From Flagellimonas aquimarina (GTDB lineage: Bacteria; Bacteroidota; Bacteroidia; Flavobacteriales; Flavobacteriaceae): a stretch of DNA of 64,000 nt. Both the position numbers and the translations under genes were made by a program. The notes under the pieces were generated by a model that had not been told where the DNA came from, ran no database searches, and saw nothing but the letters and a program-made list of their open reading frames with translations. Shown piece after piece: positions 31,455 through 51,294 of the stretch (its first letter is position 1; each line of letters begins with the position of its first letter). The stretch covers positions 62,001-126,000 of the forward strand of contig NZ_QGEG01000004.1 of NCBI RefSeq assembly GCF_003149745.1. The letters are read 5' to 3'.

Positions 31455-31458
31455 CAGT

Positions 31459-31757
31459 CAGCAGGCCACCTTATCGCTGCAATCTTAAGAAATTGGGATT
31501 GAAGAGGAAAGTCCGGACACCGTAGTGCAGCATAGCGGGTAACGCCCGTCAGCCGAAAGGCAAGGACAAGTGCAACAGAAAGCAAGTACAGTTAGGCTGT
31601 AGTGAAATCAGGTAAACTCTATGCGGTGAAACGTCATGTAAACCAACGTTTAAGGGCTGCACGCCCAAGTTGGAGGGTAGGCGGTTGGAACTTTTGGGCA
31701 ACTAAAAGTCTAGATAAATGATAAGGCTAGACAGAATCCGGCTTATGGCCTGCTTTT
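31459..31757 (+). ncRNA. rnpB: RNase P RNA component
   Basis: About 300 nt. Recognised from the class A core: GAGGAAAGTCCGGACACC near 31502-31519, the AGCCGAAAGGCAAGG region, GAAACGTC, and the 3' end ACAGAATCCGGCTTATGGCC. The 5' end GCAGGCC (31461-31467) pairs with GGCCTGC (31748-31754) to form helix P1. It is the catalytic RNA that removes tRNA 5' leaders. Divergent from dnaX; the long open frame antisense to it is a shadow. The exact ends are within a few bases. Confidence 0.95.
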
Positions 31758-31874
31758 TATTAAAATTTGCATTGCTTCACCTTGGGTTTTAATTGTTGTT
31801 GACCTTATTAAGATGTTATTTTTTAGTTAGTTATCTTTAATTAAAAGTCAGCTATCCATAATTAATAAAACCTT

Positions 31875-44838: not shown

Positions 44839-46134
44839 CTAACTATCCATTAAATAGGATTTTAGCTCTTCATATGTATTGATTTTCATTGCCTTTTTTT
44901 TCCTGCCCATAACTTTTTGAATTTGGGGAGGTATTTTAGGAGAAAGCCCCAAGGTATCCTCAACAACATCTAAAAACTTAACAGGGTGAGCTGTTTCCAG
45001 AAAGACACCATATGTGTTTGGGTTGGATTTTTGATATTCCTTAAGTCCAAGATACCCTACCGCACCATGGGGATCCATAATATAGCCAGATTCCGCATAA
45101 ATCATTTTCATTATGGATTTTGTAGCTTCATCTGAGAAGGAATAGGACGAAAGATTCTCTTGTATGGTTAAGAAATCATCTTGATATAAATGCCGTATTC
45201 TTATAAAATTGCTGGGATCGCCAACATCCATGGCATTAGAAATTGTTGCTATGGAAGGCATAGGTTCATAAACCCCACTTTTCATGAAGTTTGGAACCAC
45301 GGTATTGGCATTGGTAGACGCAACAAAATGTTTCACAGGCATACCTAATTTTTGGGCCACTATTCCGGCACAAATATTTCCAAAATTACCTGAAGGAACA
45401 GCGAACACAATTTCTTTGCCTTTTGTCCTTGCTTGTTTGTATGCAAACAGAAAATAGAACAGTTGGGGCAACCATCTGGCTACATTTATACTGTTTGCCG
45501 AGGTCAATTTCTTTTGATTTGTGATTTCAGCATCCAAAAAAGCCGTTTTTACCATACGCTGACAGTCATCAAAAGTGCCGTTCACCTCCATGGCCACAAT
45601 ATTTTGTCCCAAGGTGGTCAGCTGCTTTTCTTGTATGTCGCTCACCTTTCCACTAGGGTACAGAATGACCACATTAACGCCTTTAACACCTAAAAAACCA
45701 TTTGCTACGGCGCCACCAGTATCACCGGATGTTGCAACAAGTACAATAACCTCATTATTTTTGTCTTCAGAAAAATGGCCCAAGCATTCAGCCATAAATC
45801 TTGCCCCCACATCTTTAAATGCCATGGTAGGGCCATGAAAAAGTTCAAGAGTAGCCACATTTTCTTCAATTTGCACTAATGGGAAATCAAAATCCAACAC
45901 TTTTTTGATGATTTCTTTCAGGACTTCATCTGGAATGTTCTTGTCTACAAATTGATGTATTGCTTTAAAGGCAATTTCGTGATTGGAGTAGGAGTCTATG
46001 TTTTCAAAGAAGTTAGCGGGCAACGGTTGAATTTCTTCTGGAAAGTATAGTCCTTTATCTGGAGCAATGCCGTCGATGACCGCTTCTTTAAAGGAAGCTT
46101 GAATTTTGGAATTATTTAAACTGTAAAATTTCAT
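44839..46134 (-). CDS. thrC: Threonine synthase
   Basis: 431 residues, PLP enzyme converting O-phosphohomoserine to threonine. PLP lysine Lys107 in HGPTMAFKDVGARF, VATSGDTGGAVANGFLG, PSGNFGNICAG. Last gene of thrA-thrB-thrC; it starts 4 bp after the thrB stop. The transcript would be controlled by the leader at 49569-49658. Confidence 0.97.
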   Translation of the reverse strand: MKFYSLNNSKIQASFKEAVIDGIAPDKGLYFPEEIQPLPANFFENIDSYSNHEIAFKAIHQFVDKNIPDEVLKEIIKKVLDFDFPLVQIEENVATLELFHGPTMAFKDVGARFMAECLGHFSEDKNNEVIVLVATSGDTGGAVANGFLGVKGVNVVILYPSGKVSDIQEKQLTTLGQNIVAMEVNGTFDDCQRMVKTAFLDAEITNQKKLTSANSINVARWLPQLFYFLFAYKQARTKGKEIVFAVPSGNFGNICAGIVAQKLGMPVKHFVASTNANTVVPNFMKSGVYEPMPSIATISNAMDVGDPSNFIRIRHLYQDDFLTIQENLSSYSFSDEATKSIMKMIYAESGYIMDPHGAVGYLGLKEYQKSNPNTYGVFLETAHPVKFLDVVEDTLGLSPKIPPQIQKVMGRKKKAMKINTYEELKSYLMDS

Positions 46135-46138
46135 GTGT

Positions 46139-47062
46139 TTATGCTATTCTTTTAACTCCTTCTGTATTGATCTTTGAAATATGAATGTCAAAAGGAATTC
46201 CAATGGTCCCATAGACTTCCTTCATCGATTCCGCAACTCTTTGTGCCACATTCTCTCCTTTGCTCAAAGCAAAAATGGAAGGGCCAGAGCCTGAAATTCC
46301 GCAACCTAGTGCACCAACACCCATGGCACTGGATTTTACATGATCAAAGCCCGGAATCAATATTGACCGAATAGGTTCTACTATATGGTCTTCTAAAGAA
46401 CGCCCGATTAAATCGTAGTCATTTTTAAAAAGGCCGGCAATAAGGCCACCAACATTGCCCCATTGTTGTATTCCTTTTTCTAGAGTAATGTTGGTTTTTA
46501 AGATTTTTCTGGAATCAGAAGTTTTTATTTCAATCTGTGGATGGATTACGGTAGCAAAAAGTTCGCTAGGGGTTGGAATGGAAATAACATCTAACGGATC
46601 GTAACTTCTTACCAATGTAAACCCGCCGTAAATGGCAGGAGCTACATTGTCTGCATGGGCAACATCGCTTGCTAGTTTTTCTCCTTGCATTGCAAATTTA
46701 ACCAACTCCAAATTTGAGAATGGTTTTCCCAACAATTCATTCATGGCCCATACTGCTCCTGCAGAACTGGCCGCACTGCTGCCGATTCCACTTCCTGGTT
46801 TGATTTTTTTGTCAATCTCAATTTCAAAACCACCTTGGTAACCACTTTTCTCCAATAGAGCCATACCCGCCACCCCAGAAACATTTTTAGCGGTTTCAAG
46901 AGGTAAATCTTGACCCATAATTTTGGTAATGGCAATCCCTTTTTTAGCTGTTTTTCGAACTGTCATTTCATCACCTACAGCGTCTAGGGCAAGCCCCAGG
47001 ACATCAAATCCACATGAAACGTTTGCAATAGTTGCCGGACAAAAAACCTTTATTTCCTCCAT
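46139..47062 (-). CDS. thrB: Homoserine kinase
   Basis: 307 residues, GHMP kinase phosphorylating homoserine. N-terminal CPATIANVSCGFDVLGLAL, ATP loop KPGSGIGSSAASSAGAVWA, and C-terminal GCGISGSGPSIFAL. One base separates it from the thrA stop, and 4 bp from thrC, so the three are tightly coupled. Confidence 0.97.
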   Translation of the reverse strand: MEEIKVFCPATIANVSCGFDVLGLALDAVGDEMTVRKTAKKGIAITKIMGQDLPLETAKNVSGVAGMALLEKSGYQGGFEIEIDKKIKPGSGIGSSAASSAGAVWAMNELLGKPFSNLELVKFAMQGEKLASDVAHADNVAPAIYGGFTLVRSYDPLDVISIPTPSELFATVIHPQIEIKTSDSRKILKTNITLEKGIQQWGNVGGLIAGLFKNDYDLIGRSLEDHIVEPIRSILIPGFDHVKSSAMGVGALGCGISGSGPSIFALSKGENVAQRVAESMKEVYGTIGIPFDIHISKINTEGVKRIA

Positions 47063-47063
47063 C

Positions 47064-49508
47064 TTAGAAGTTTCCTATTCGTATGATATCGGCAAAGATA
47101 CCAGAAGCTGTGACATCTGCACCTGCACCCGCACCTTTAATAATTAGGGGTTGATTTGGATATCGTTCTGTATAAAACAGCACAATGTTATCGCTACCCT
47201 CCAGATTGTAAAAATCGTGTCCTTTAGGTATTTTTTGTAGCCCAACACGTGCTTTCCCATCTTCAAACTGCGCTACATACTTAAGTTTGCTATCAGCGTC
47301 CTTAGCTTCTTTGAACATTTTTTGAAAGGTAGTTTCATTTTTCTTCAATGATGCGAAAAATGCTTCATTGGATTTGGTATCCAAGCTTTCCTTTGGCAGA
47401 AAGGAGTCGTTTTCAATTTGTTCTATGTCCAATTGGTTTCCACTTTCTCGTGCCAAGATCAGAATCTTTCGCATTACGTCTATACCGCTGAGGTCAATGG
47501 TGGGGTCAGGCTCGGTATACCCCTCTTCTTGTGCTTGCTTTACAATATCATGAAAGGTAACGGAATCATTAAAATTGTTAAAGACAAAATTTAGACTTCC
47601 TGACAATACTGCTTGTATCTTTTTCACCTTATCTCCCGAAGCGATGAGATGTTTCAATGTATCAATAATGGGAAGTCCCGCACCCACATTGGTTTCAAAC
47701 AAAAATGGCGAATTGTATTGCTTTGCCAATTGCTTCAAATAGCGGTAGTAGTCGTAATCTGAGGAACAGGCAATTTTGTTACAAGTGACCACGGAAATAC
47801 TATTTTTTAGATAATCTGGATAGCTTTCTGAAACCTGTTCACTTGCGGTATTGTCCACAAAAACGCTATTACGATAATTTAGCTTTTTTACAATTTTAAA
47901 AAACACTTCTTTATCAGCTTTTCGTCCATTTGCCAAAGTGGTTTCCCAATCTTTTAATGAGATTCCATCTTCGTCAAAATCCATGGTTCTTGAATTACTA
48001 ATACCAATGACTCTTATATTGAGTTTAAGTTCTTCCTTTAGGTATTTTTTCTGTTGCTTTATCTGGTTTAGGAATTTGGAACCAACATTCCCAACACCCA
48101 TTACAAAGAGATTGAGTTGTTTTATATTTTCCTCAAAAAATTCCTCGTGTAAGGAATTAAGGGCTTTTTTTACATCTGTTTTTGTAATTACTGCAGAAAT
48201 GTTCCGTTCAGATGCTCCTTGGGCTATGGCTCTTATGTTTACATTGTTCCTCCCCAGAGTGCTGAACATTTTACCGCTGAGCCCTTGATGGCTTTTCATG
48301 TTATCCCCAACTAAAGCAACTATAGCTAGGTCTTTTTCAACCAATACCGGTTTTATTTTATTACTGGCGATTTCATATTCAAAAGCTGTGTTTACCACTT
48401 GTACCGCTTTTTCAACATCATCATCTGAAATACCTACGCAGATAGAGTGCTCAGAGGAAGCTTGGGTTATGAGTACAACGCTTATATTTTCTAAGGACAA
48501 GGTTTCAAAAAAACGTTTTGAAATTCCTGGAACGCCAATCATGCCAGGTCCTTCCAGAGAAAGCAAACTAATATTGCTCACATGGCTAATGCCTCTTACG
48601 GTTTTTCCATTGCCATTGTTGTTTTTGGCAATGTAAGTTCCTTCATCTTCAGGTTTAAAAGTATTTTTGATGACAATGGGTATTTCCTTGTTTAGCACGG
48701 GCTGAATAGTGGGGGGGTAAAGGACTTTAGCTCCAAAATGGGAAAGCTCCATGGCTTCTTCATAGCTAATATGTGATACACACTTTGCCTGTTTTACCAA
48801 TTTGGGATTGGCCGTAAACATACCGCTAACATCTGTCCATATTTCTAGAATATCCGCTTTTTGGGCCGCAGCAATTATTGCTGCAGTATAGTCTGAGCCA
48901 CCTCGGCCCAGAGTGGTGGAATTTCCAGAACCACTTGAAGATACAAACCCGGGAAGTACGGTTATTTGATTTTTGGCATTCTTAAAATAAGCATTGCAGT
49001 TAGCATAGGTTTTTTCAACATCGATTGTTGCATTGCCATAGTTCTCATCTGTAAGTATTAATTGCCTGCTATCTTTAAAATCGGCTTTTAGGCCCTCAGC
49101 TTTAAAGAACTCACTAATAATAAATGATGAAAGTAGTTCTCCGTAGCTTACTATCTTATCAGATAACTTAGGAGTAAGCTCTCCAATTAAAAATGAACCT
49201 TCTAAAAGGGTTTCCAAAACGTTCAAATCACTTTTAACCTTGCTTAAAATGGTACTTTGAGCTTTAACGGGTATAAGCGCTCTAATTGAGTCTATATGTC
49301 TATCCTCAATTTCTTTAAGGCCTTTTTTATAGGCTAAATCTTGATTTGAGGCCAAATGGGATGTGTTGAGCAGTAAATCTGTAATGCCCCCAAATGCAGA
49401 TACCACAATGGCTATCGTATCAGTGTGATTGTTTTGAACAATGGCTTTGACTCGATTTATATTTTCAGGATTGGCGACCGATGTACCGCCAAATTTTAAG
49501 ACTTTCAT
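47064..49508 (-). CDS. thrA: Bifunctional aspartate kinase / homoserine dehydrogenase I
   Basis: 814 residues. The kinase domain starts MKVLKFGGTSVANPENI and has TLGRGGSDYTAAIIA; two ACT domains follow (GISKRFFETLSLENISVVLITQASSEHSICV and MFSTLGRNNVNIRAIAQGASERNISAVI), usually the site of threonine feedback. The homoserine dehydrogenase domain begins LFVMGVGNVGSKFLNQI and includes TCNKIACS, ETNVGAGLPIIDTL and the late EPDPTIDLSGIDVMRK. First and third steps of threonine synthesis. A 160-nt leader with a Thr-rich peptide precedes it. Confidence 0.97.
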   Translation of the reverse strand: MKVLKFGGTSVANPENINRVKAIVQNNHTDTIAIVVSAFGGITDLLLNTSHLASNQDLAYKKGLKEIEDRHIDSIRALIPVKAQSTILSKVKSDLNVLETLLEGSFLIGELTPKLSDKIVSYGELLSSFIISEFFKAEGLKADFKDSRQLILTDENYGNATIDVEKTYANCNAYFKNAKNQITVLPGFVSSSGSGNSTTLGRGGSDYTAAIIAAAQKADILEIWTDVSGMFTANPKLVKQAKCVSHISYEEAMELSHFGAKVLYPPTIQPVLNKEIPIVIKNTFKPEDEGTYIAKNNNGNGKTVRGISHVSNISLLSLEGPGMIGVPGISKRFFETLSLENISVVLITQASSEHSICVGISDDDVEKAVQVVNTAFEYEIASNKIKPVLVEKDLAIVALVGDNMKSHQGLSGKMFSTLGRNNVNIRAIAQGASERNISAVITKTDVKKALNSLHEEFFEENIKQLNLFVMGVGNVGSKFLNQIKQQKKYLKEELKLNIRVIGISNSRTMDFDEDGISLKDWETTLANGRKADKEVFFKIVKKLNYRNSVFVDNTASEQVSESYPDYLKNSISVVTCNKIACSSDYDYYRYLKQLAKQYNSPFLFETNVGAGLPIIDTLKHLIASGDKVKKIQAVLSGSLNFVFNNFNDSVTFHDIVKQAQEEGYTEPDPTIDLSGIDVMRKILILARESGNQLDIEQIENDSFLPKESLDTKSNEAFFASLKKNETTFQKMFKEAKDADSKLKYVAQFEDGKARVGLQKIPKGHDFYNLEGSDNIVLFYTERYPNQPLIIKGAGAGADVTASGIFADIIRIGNF

Positions 49509-49567
49509 GATTGAATTATGTTGTAAAATGTTGAAATAGATTGAATGAGTACGGAAACAAATAGCAT

Positions 49568-49586
49568 ATTACCCCAAAGGGGTAAT
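49568..49586 (-). promoter_or_regulatory. Hairpin at the end of the thr leader peptide
   Basis: Perfect 8-bp stem ATTACCCC/GGGGTAAT with a 3-nt loop, on the minus strand covering the last six codons and the stop of the leader peptide. A ribosome finishing or stalling there would melt it. It is followed by ATGCTATTTGTTTCC, a poor T-run, so it is not a textbook terminator. GGAAAC (minus, 49620-49615) can also pair with GTTTCC (minus, 49558-49553) to enclose the whole element. Confidence 0.55.
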
Positions 49587-49658
49587 GGTAGTGAAAGTGA
49601 AGATAGATGAAAAAGTTTCCATCATTGAATGTTTAATATCCGTTTGTTTAAATTGCAT
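49569..49658 (-). CDS. Threonine operon leader peptide
   Basis: A 29-codon frame, ATG at 49658, TAA at 49569, about 12 nt after the predicted thrA transcription start. An internal pair of ATG codons (49625, 49622) is an alternative start. The C-terminal half reads ETFSSIFTFTTITPLG: five Thr and two Ile codons in 16, four of the Thr within six codons (T-F-T-T-I-T) just before the end. Threonine and isoleucine are the products controlled by this operon, as in E. coli thrL. The last codons and the stop lie inside a perfect hairpin (49568-49586). The gene is too short for usual gene callers. Confidence 0.7.
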   Translation of the reverse strand: MQFKQTDIKHSMMETFSSIFTFTTITPLG

Positions 49659-49675
49659 AGCGCAAGACTCGAGGT

Positions 49676-49706
49676 CAAAAGTAGTACTTTTGAGAGCTTC
49701 TTCAAA
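49676..49706 (-). promoter_or_regulatory. thrA promoter, with a palindromic -7 region
   Basis: On the minus strand: TTTG (49706-49703), 19-nt spacer, TACTTTTG (49683-49676), an exact Bacteroidota promoter. The -7 box is half of a 17-bp palindrome CAAAAGTA-G-TACTTTTG (49676-49692), so the plus strand also carries TACTTTTG (49685-49692) toward nnrDE, without a -33 box at the right distance. Confidence 0.7.
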
Positions 49707-49758: not shown

Positions 49759-51294
49759 ATGAAAATTTTTACCGCAAGTCAGATATATGAAGCTGATAAA
49801 TTCACAATAAATAAGCAGCAAATTACAAGTGATGCTCTTATGGAAAGGGCCGCTACCAAATTATTTGATTGGATGCATTCCAGGCTTCAAGGTGCCCAGG
49901 TTAAAATCCACTTGTTCTGTGGAATTGGAAACAACGGAGGTGATGGTGTGGCTTTGGCTAGACATCTTCATGAACATGGGTATGATATTGCGGTCTATGT
50001 TGTCAACTATAGCGAAAAGCGCTCAAAAGACTTTTTAATTAATTTGGATAGGCTTAAAGAACGAAAACTATGGCCTGAATTTTTGGATTCTGATTGTTCT
50101 TTACCTGAGATAACCCCGAATGATATTATCGTAGATGCAATTTTTGGGATAGGATTAAATAGGGCACCCGATGCATGGGTTGCAAACCTCATCAAACATC
50201 TCAATTCCTCTTCTGCGTTTGTTCTCTCTGTGGATATACCTTCCGGTTTACCCTCAAATAGAAGTCCCTGGGACGGTGAACATGTTGTTCGTGCTAGTTA
50301 CGTATTAAGTTTTCAGGTTCCCAAATTGGTGTTTTTTCTTCCAGAAACAGGAGTGTACCAAAACCAATGGGAAATCTTGGATATTGGATTGGATTCTGAA
50401 TTTTTGGTCAAAACCGATACGGATTATGAACTCATAGGCAGACCGGAAATCATGCCAATGTACCGCCCACGACTAAAGTTTTCTCATAAAGGCACTTACG
50501 GACATTCTGTAATCATTGGAGGAAGTTATGGAAAAATTGGGGCTGTTCAATTGGCCAGTAATGCATGTTTGTCTGCCGGTAGTGGTTTGGTGACTGCCTT
50601 TGTGCCAGAATGCGGATATCATTCTTTACAAACTTCAATTCCTGAAATAATGGTACTGACCGATGATGCGGACGACAGCATAAGCGAGATTGATATTCCA
50701 TTTGTGCCTACTGCTATTGGTGTAGGAATGGGAATGGGTACAAAAGATGAGACAATTAAGGCTTTTGGTTCATTTTTAAAGAAGGTTGAAACCTCTATTG
50801 TAATTGATGCGGATGGCCTAAATATTTTGGCAAAGCAACCTAACTTGCTTAAAGATGTTCCTAAGCAATCTGTTTTAACACCACATCCAAAAGAACTGGA
50901 ACGTTTAATAGGGAAGTGGAAAGACGATTTTGATAAGCTTGAAAAAGCCAAATCATTTTCAATGAAGAATGATTGCATCATAGTAATTAAAGGTGCGCAC
51001 AGTATTACCGTATACAAGGATAAAGGATTTGTGAATACAACAGGAAATCCAGGTATGGCAACTGCAGGAAGTGGAGATGTTTTAACAGGAATGATTACAG
51101 GTTTAATGGCCCAAGGATATGCTCCTTTACAGGCAGCTATTTTTGGGGTTTACTTACACGGACTGGCAGGAGATGTTGGAGTGTCTACCGCAGGATACGA
51201 AGCATTAAAAGCTTCTGGTATTATTGAAAATATTGGTAATGCCTATATGGAGCTGTTAAGACCGCCAAATAAGGAGAATGAGGAAAAAGTTTAA
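49759..51294 (+). CDS. nnrDE: Bifunctional NAD(P)H-hydrate epimerase/dehydratase
   Basis: 511 residues. It repairs hydrated NAD(P)H. N-terminal YjeF_N epimerase domain (about 1-215): GIGNNGGDGVALARHL, VDAIFGIGLNR, SVDIPSGL. C-terminal ADP-dependent dehydratase (about 230-505): HKGTYGHSVIIGGSYGKIGAVQLASNACLSAGSGLVT, DADGLNIL, LTPHPKEL, NPGMATAGSGDVLTGMITGLMAQG. Divergent from the thr operon; convergent with the following gene at 14 bp. Confidence 0.96.
   Translation: MKIFTASQIYEADKFTINKQQITSDALMERAATKLFDWMHSRLQGAQVKIHLFCGIGNNGGDGVALARHLHEHGYDIAVYVVNYSEKRSKDFLINLDRLKERKLWPEFLDSDCSLPEITPNDIIVDAIFGIGLNRAPDAWVANLIKHLNSSSAFVLSVDIPSGLPSNRSPWDGEHVVRASYVLSFQVPKLVFFLPETGVYQNQWEILDIGLDSEFLVKTDTDYELIGRPEIMPMYRPRLKFSHKGTYGHSVIIGGSYGKIGAVQLASNACLSAGSGLVTAFVPECGYHSLQTSIPEIMVLTDDADDSISEIDIPFVPTAIGVGMGMGTKDETIKAFGSFLKKVETSIVIDADGLNILAKQPNLLKDVPKQSVLTPHPKELERLIGKWKDDFDKLEKAKSFSMKNDCIIVIKGAHSITVYKDKGFVNTTGNPGMATAGSGDVLTGMITGLMAQGYAPLQAAIFGVYLHGLAGDVGVSTAGYEALKASGIIENIGNAYMELLRPPNKENEEKV

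Follow-up and report, generated by a model that had tools for sequence, protein, structure and literature searches.

A threonine- and isoleucine-rich leader peptide ending in a conserved hairpin upstream of thrABC in Flagellimonas aquimarina: a probable attenuation sensor, mostly found without a classical terminator

Leader-peptide attenuation is a textbook mechanism, and in the thrL/thrABC attenuator of E. coli (Rfam Thr_leader) the sensor is a run of threonine and isoleucine codons in a short leader peptide on which the ribosome stalls. Attenuators in Bacteroidetes/Chlorobi are reportedly mentioned in a comparative study by Vitreschak and colleagues from 2004. In Flavobacterium psychrophilum, strong indications of leader-peptide attenuation have been described in front of operons for amino-acid biosynthesis (PMC9723704); these attenuators belong to the same kind and family as the leader considered here and are, in the available portion of that article, described generally with no operon, sequence or structure named. 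For B. thetaiotaomicron, a further study notes long 5' UTRs that contain small, leader-like frames (PMC7366714). In E. coli, according to PMC12121999, the toiL/topAI upstream frame acts by ribosome stalling and modulates Rho-dependent termination. It shares a stalling upstream frame and Rho with the mechanism proposed below for thr and differs in that it senses antibiotics, with a direct effect on topAI translation and an indirect one on Rho termination within the coding region. Attenuation is argued in PMC4833913 to need at least 40 bases from leader stop to gene, and the thr leader described here has 60. No flavobacterial thr leader was found in a literature search by title or abstract start, with subscription papers mostly outside its scope.

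The thr locus lies on contig C4 of the 3.6-Mb genome, within the 64,000-nucleotide stretch analysed here (the window). thrA, thrB and a thrC-like reading frame follow each other in close succession on the minus strand, and the gene upstream of thrA, an NAD(P)H-hydrate dehydratase/epimerase gene at 49759, faces away. The 250 bases between that gene and thrA hold a promoter, a 29-codon frame and 60 further bases, in this order. The genus referred to throughout is Flagellimonas/Allomuricauda, the closest named relatives. The features are as follows.

44839..46134, minus strand: thrC-like open reading frame from the ORF listing, threonine synthase by inspection
46139..47062, minus strand: thrB, homoserine kinase (NCBIfam TIGR00191 and NF002288, both above cut-off)
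47064..49508, minus strand, start at 49508: thrA, bifunctional aspartate kinase/homoserine dehydrogenase I, 814 aa (NCBIfam NF006959, 1066 bits against a cut-off of 726)
49509..49568, minus strand: 60-base tail from the leader to thrA with 13 C and 3 G, a candidate Rho-loading stretch by composition
49551..49555, minus strand: 3' element TCCGT (CGTCCGT in many relatives), from alignments and pairing probability
49568..49586, minus strand: hairpin ATTACCCC-TTT-GGGGTAAT holding the leader stop (49571-49569), from a hairpin scan and alignments of genus and distant relatives
49569..49658, minus strand: leader peptide frame of 29 codons with a TAA stop and the Thr/Ile run in codons 21-26, from translation, coding signature and spread
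49639..49643, minus strand: 5' element ACGGA in leader codons 6-7, complementary to 49555-49551, from alignments and pairing probability
49676..49683, minus strand: -7 element TACTTTTG, 19 bases 3' of the -33 element, from the sequence and the genus alignment
49703..49706, minus strand: -33 element TTTG of an inferred Bacteroidota-type promoter, from the sequence and the consensus of this promoter type

The second aspartate-kinase paralogue of the genome (contig C3) is continuous with an upstream reading frame. Elsewhere in the window, a bacterial class A RNase P RNA was located at 31458-31760.

The first-pass annotation, made from the letters and a list of reading frames, had placed a 29-codon frame between a consensus promoter and thrA and had pointed to four Thr codons and one Ile codon in six positions next to its stop. 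The frame is present at 49658-49569 on the minus strand and translates as MQFKQTDIKHSMMETFSSIFTFTTITPLG* with the C-terminal end TFTTITPLG, codons 21-26 reading T F T T I T as described. Only 2 of the 1769 window frames of at least 8 codons on both strands hold four or more Thr and five or more Thr plus Ile in six of their last ten codons; one is the leader frame and the other lies inside the span of thrA. The coding signature was evaluated in 27 distinct leaders out of 30 fetched genus loci, a DNA search having found the thr region in 58 of 60 genus genomes. The leader frame contains no inner stop in these sequences, only the 27 terminal ones, compared with 68 and 51 stops in the two other frames. 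Single-base codon differences over codons 1-26 were synonymous/nonsynonymous at 1017/1610 in frame and at 561/2680 and 462/2413 in the other two, and mean entropy was highest at third codon positions (0.65, against 0.46 at first and 0.41 at second positions). Codon 26 is Thr in all 27 leaders and codon 21 in 25, at codons 24 and 25 all 27 have Thr or Ile with several synonymous codons at both, and codon 23 is Thr in 18, Ile in 4, Val in 3 and Ala in 2. Threonine is thus exchanged chiefly for isoleucine, which fits the established role of the threonine operon, whose product feeds isoleucine synthesis. Comparison across the genus shows, at the level of sequence, a frame under coding selection whose Thr/Ile run is kept and is not a product of chance. 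An in-frame ATG is found at codon 1 in 26 of the 27 leaders (L024 is without it) and at codon 13 in all of them, and both are candidate starts. As judged from the coding signature of the 27 leaders and the putative promoter upstream, a short frame lies between promoter and operon, and its codon run, Thr/Ile before thrA-thrB, is for the amino acid that the operon itself makes.

A sigma-70 scan returned 3 sites, all of them on the opposite strand and none an E. coli-like site for the thrA leader. The arrangement TTTG-19-TACTTTTG, which matches the Bacteroidota promoter type, is found upstream of the frame. The putative promoter is of this type and is not E. coli-like. In the genus alignment the -7 element reads TACTTTTG, TACATTTA or similar forms, and TTG falls inside an 8-base interval at the -33 offset in 66 of 67 aligned relatives, of which 61 are distinct; this alignment does not include 3 more regions that lack the hairpin pattern described below. 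A promoter in this position would start the RNA near 49669 and give a leader RNA of about 160 nt, which agrees with the length first estimated.

The spread of the leader was evaluated by counting frames with at least three Thr and at least four Thr plus Ile in seven of the last 14 codons and a stop no more than 300 bases from thrA. Of the 56 distinct genus regions, 53 have such a frame before thrA (single-base shuffles 3.5; reverse strand 0). It was found in 93 of 122 regions that come mostly from other genera of the family (shuffles 7.3; reverse strand 2), the groups having been split by locus number so that at least two of these rows, L182 and L183, belong to the genus. Outside the family but within the class the count was 11 of 20 regions (shuffles 0.8; reverse strand 1), drawn from the 30 best places with 88 of 296 searched genomes matched, a sample in which near relatives are over-represented and the best thrA matches favoured; one of the 11 (L235, MTPPTTTAAAES) looks false. 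The family loci comprised 30 plus 60 hand-picked from the match list (294 of 299 genomes matched), and the named loci were the best 80 of 360. L069 and L103, for which the thrA start was not found, and the window copies L039, L070 and L071 were left out before counting. No frame of this composition was seen in 29 of the 122 family regions and 9 of the 20 class regions; among these L233 and L240 plainly have a near-miss frame, and L121 and L223 have none by eye. Leader ends in distant relatives include SATTTITITTP*, TTTTFTTTR*, IIATTTITTP* and INTIITITITG*. The first-pass annotation had named the upstream regions of close relatives as the place where its proposal could fail, and in these regions, as in those of distant relatives, the short frame occurs in the same place with conserved Thr/Ile codons and change at third positions. 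A loose ATG-Thr-Thr-Ile pattern searched in the window's own genome was uninformative, with 48 places against 43 for the reversed control.

The stop codon of the leader is enclosed in the window by a hairpin of 8 pairs, the core of which forms 14 invariant columns in the 30 genus loci. Of 156 distinct leaders, 127 have a hairpin of at least 4 pairs, at least 3 of them G-C, in contact with the stop codon; control positions taken from the same sequences gave a mean of 7.3. The inner arms of these 127 hairpins are CCCC/GGGG in 111, ACCC/GGGT in 9, CCCT/GGGG in 2, CGGG/CCCG in 2, and three single cases. Arms and loops differ in distant relatives while pairing is kept, and in some distant leaders the stop codon itself sits in the loop (CCCGG-TAA-CCGGG, CGGG-GTAA-CCCG). 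The peptide end varies with it, reading PLG, PFGV, LWGC, R or P. This retention of shape under changing sequence and changing peptide end argues for a conserved RNA structure around the stop codon. Upon folding of 117 leaders the predicted probability of the stop hairpin was 0.79 in free RNA and fell to 0.00 once a ribosome was placed over the Thr run or the stop, the footprint being imposed by the model. A combined pattern of hairpin and CGTCC occurs in 10 of 119 family genomes, at one place each, and its reversed form in none; nine of these places lie just upstream of thrA by coordinates and the tenth by way of the thrA start in L252. The window's own genome has no CGTCC at this position and is thus outside the 10. 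A hairpin pattern matches 3 places in that genome, two of which are this palindrome on its two strands, while the third (L069) falls in a pckA-like coding region.

A second pairing, spanning the leader, is possible. The early codons of the leader contain ACGGAC, which is ACGGAT in the genus, and GTCCGT, the reverse complement of ACGGAC, follows the hairpin; the window keeps only ACGGA:TCCGT. The mean best pairing probability between the two elements was 0.69 in the 117 folded leaders, and in the first 60 leaders it was 0.67 against 0.25 with a shuffled tail. Paired variants exist (GCGAAC with GTTCGT, TCGGAC with GTCCGA), and many rows break the pairing. Covariation was not significant, as 1533 of 10000 permutations reached the observed value (53 distinct pairs, 118 sequences). 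A crude test by duplex energies showed no consistent excess, own duplexes beating swapped ones in only 17/31, 25/41 and 15/38 cases. RNAalifold on 61 sequences returned the stop-codon hairpin only, and in 118 aligned leaders the mutual-information signal was noisy, with the long-range pairing not standing out. The pairing also did not switch across three modelled ribosome states (0.69, 0.69 and 0.60). In terms of alternative structures, the stop hairpin is excluded by the imposed footprint, and the long-range pairing shows neither a switch nor significant covariation.

Terminators were searched for with a script that requires 5 or more pairs in the stem, 3 of them G-C, and a U-rich tail after it. 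Where a count depends on the hairpin pattern, only regions showing the pattern were used, giving 159 distinct thr leaders for the terminator search and 152 for the tail analysis, the latter also limited to tails of 40-140 bases. Only 13 of the 159 pass (shuffles 0.6), 12 of them by way of the stop-codon hairpin itself with a marginal tail, and the window's own leader is among the 146 that fail. In a second terminator scan the window hairpin with the tail ATGCTATTTG passes marginally. By eye, many thr leader tails read like AAGCNACTATATAT, which is not a U run. The likeness to E. coli thrL that had been claimed extends accordingly to the sensor, a short Thr/Ile leader peptide just upstream of thrABC, and not to the terminator: a strong GC stem with a U run was not found between leader and thrA in 146 of 159 relatives. 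The stop codon held in a conserved short hairpin and the promoter type are further differences from E. coli thrL. Rfam release 15 covariance models, Thr_leader included, gave no match at gathering score in the thr leader region; with E up to 5 the only hit was CRISPR-DR22 (E 0.91, below gathering score), again without Thr_leader.

The tail itself has a skewed composition. The 152 thr tails contain 20.3% C and 7.3% G, a C/G ratio of 2.79, compared with 0.93 in 29 his tails and 0.89 in 26 intergenic 70-base stretches before window genes; the highest single control upstream ratio was 2.27, and the related sequences are not independent. Over the last 45 bases before the gene, C/G was 3.36 for thrA (169 distinct regions) and 1.24 for hisG (29 regions). 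Stretches of C over G are a known mark of Rho loading, and by composition the untranslated stretch before thrA is of this kind.

Runs of cognate codons were also found in short frames before other operons of the same genome, HHHH before hisG, VVIII before ilvD and WWW before a trpE-like gene, as in the thr leader; by the script these leaders have long stems and U-rich tails, which the thr leader lacks. The His leader, MRNKNTHHHHFYTCTQAR, is located at about 2207-2151 on the minus strand of the hisG locus (L213), with a strong intrinsic terminator at 2120-2095. Among 60 genomes 55 gave a match; of the 30 best family loci, which were the ones examined, 29 have a His leader and one is without it by the criterion used. 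The same script finds a strong intrinsic terminator in 29/29 of these His leaders, through long stems with U-rich tails. A probable ilv leader, VRAKNLINSVVIIIPSLE, with a GTG start lies at about 1141-1197 on the plus strand of the ilvD locus (L212), and about 40 bases on the script reports a strong terminator with a 12-pair stem and the tail TTTTATG. The second scan confirmed the his terminator and found none at ilv, which we think may result from its extending the stem into the T run. The Trp leader, MNLRTVNTWWWINLRRMS, at about 1330-1390 on the plus strand of the trpE-like locus (L253, below the family cut-off), is followed by the strong terminator AGGCTTGTC-ATCAC-GACAAGCCTTTTT.

With high confidence we regard the frame at 49658-49569 as encoding the leader peptide through which a ribosome-mediated attenuator senses charged tRNA-Thr, and probably tRNA-Ile as well, a reading which fits the coding signature, the spread, the stop-codon hairpin and the matching his, ilv and trp leaders. 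Transcription would begin near 49669 and the leading ribosome would translate the leader. When threonine is short, the ribosome would stall on the Thr/Ile run with its footprint covering the stop-codon hairpin, and stalling would be expected to raise thrABC transcription and expression. When threonine is plentiful, the ribosome would finish and leave, upon which the hairpin could form, the untranslated G-poor tail would be exposed and transcription would end early. The ACGGA(C):(G)TCCGT pairing, should it be real, may tune termination. Since a canonical intrinsic terminator comes after few of the thr leaders, the tentatively favoured way in which the signal may be converted is termination by Rho in the C-over-G tail, at a little below an even chance. 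The hairpin as a weak terminator is ranked second, ahead of a translational effect.

Were the stop-codon hairpin itself to serve as intrinsic terminator and to be blocked when a ribosome stalls at the Thr codons, the marginal pass of the 8-pair window hairpin in the second scan and the 12 of 13 script-passing leaders that pass by this hairpin (shuffles 0.6) would be accounted for. The failure of 146/159 leaders, the window's included, together with the many tails like AAGCNACTATATAT and the his leaders of the same family that pass 29/29, makes this unlikely. Lack of a terminator is compatible with translational control, in which stalling on the leader would alter access to the thrA start or allow reinitiation, leaving transcription unaffected. 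The predicted openness of the thrA start is however the same in the three ribosome states (0.56, 0.56 and 0.57), which speaks against simple masking of the start site, and the distance from hairpin to thrA ranges from 70 to 291 bases, the long gaps, like the thr tail distances, hinging on the start and the hairpin chosen by patterns. We consider this explanation improbable to a similar degree.

Two further explanations dispense with codon-rate sensing and are far less probable. The palindrome TTACCCCTTTGGGGTAA might be a DNA operator for a repressor with the Thr-rich frame incidental to it, and the 14 columns invariant across 30 genus loci speak for it; against it, arms and loop differ in distant relatives where the pairing and the Thr codons ahead of it remain, the frame is under coding selection, and the hairpin with CGTCC occurs only at thrA in 119 genomes. 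An operator is for these reasons very hard to credit. Arrest by the nascent peptide at the C-terminal PLG, in the manner of TnaC, would explain why PLG does not vary among the 27 distinct genus leaders, but elsewhere the ends read TPFGV, TTLWGC, TTTR and TTP while the Thr/Ile run and the RNA pairing persist, and we give it scarcely more weight. A hairpin shape kept while sequence and peptide end change, as described above, stands against a fixed operator and an arrest peptide alike, and a leader peptide read at the rate of its Thr and Ile codons is retained as the preferred reading.

What is already known here is the type of sensor; what differs is the conserved hairpin at the stop codon, mostly without a classical terminator. 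A wider generalisation, which we hold to be rather doubtful, would be that the thr attenuator of Bacteroidota is widely conserved and combines a leader-peptide sensor with the lack of an intrinsic terminator; in it the hairpin-locked stop and the C-over-G tail would leave Rho to decide, the classical terminator having been kept in the his, ilv and trp leaders of the same genome. The modelling and comparisons suggest a way in which bacteria from a major phylum of sea and soil may regulate their supply of threonine and isoleucine, and the leader frame is a small gene absent from the listing. As thr leaders are mostly without a terminator and his leaders of the same family have one, the step from stalling to transcription is directly testable.

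Some additional structures were observed by eye in relatives. A further hairpin is seen before thrA, and a ACATATCATC-like motif, which may be an RNA polymerase pause site, recurs shortly 3' of the stop hairpin in thr leaders from Flavobacterium-like and more distant members of the class (some of L220-L241 and L088-L106). In one family group, L107-L128, several leaders seem to hold an extra hairpin in the coding sequence before the Thr run, the 3' arm of which could also pair downstream of the stop.
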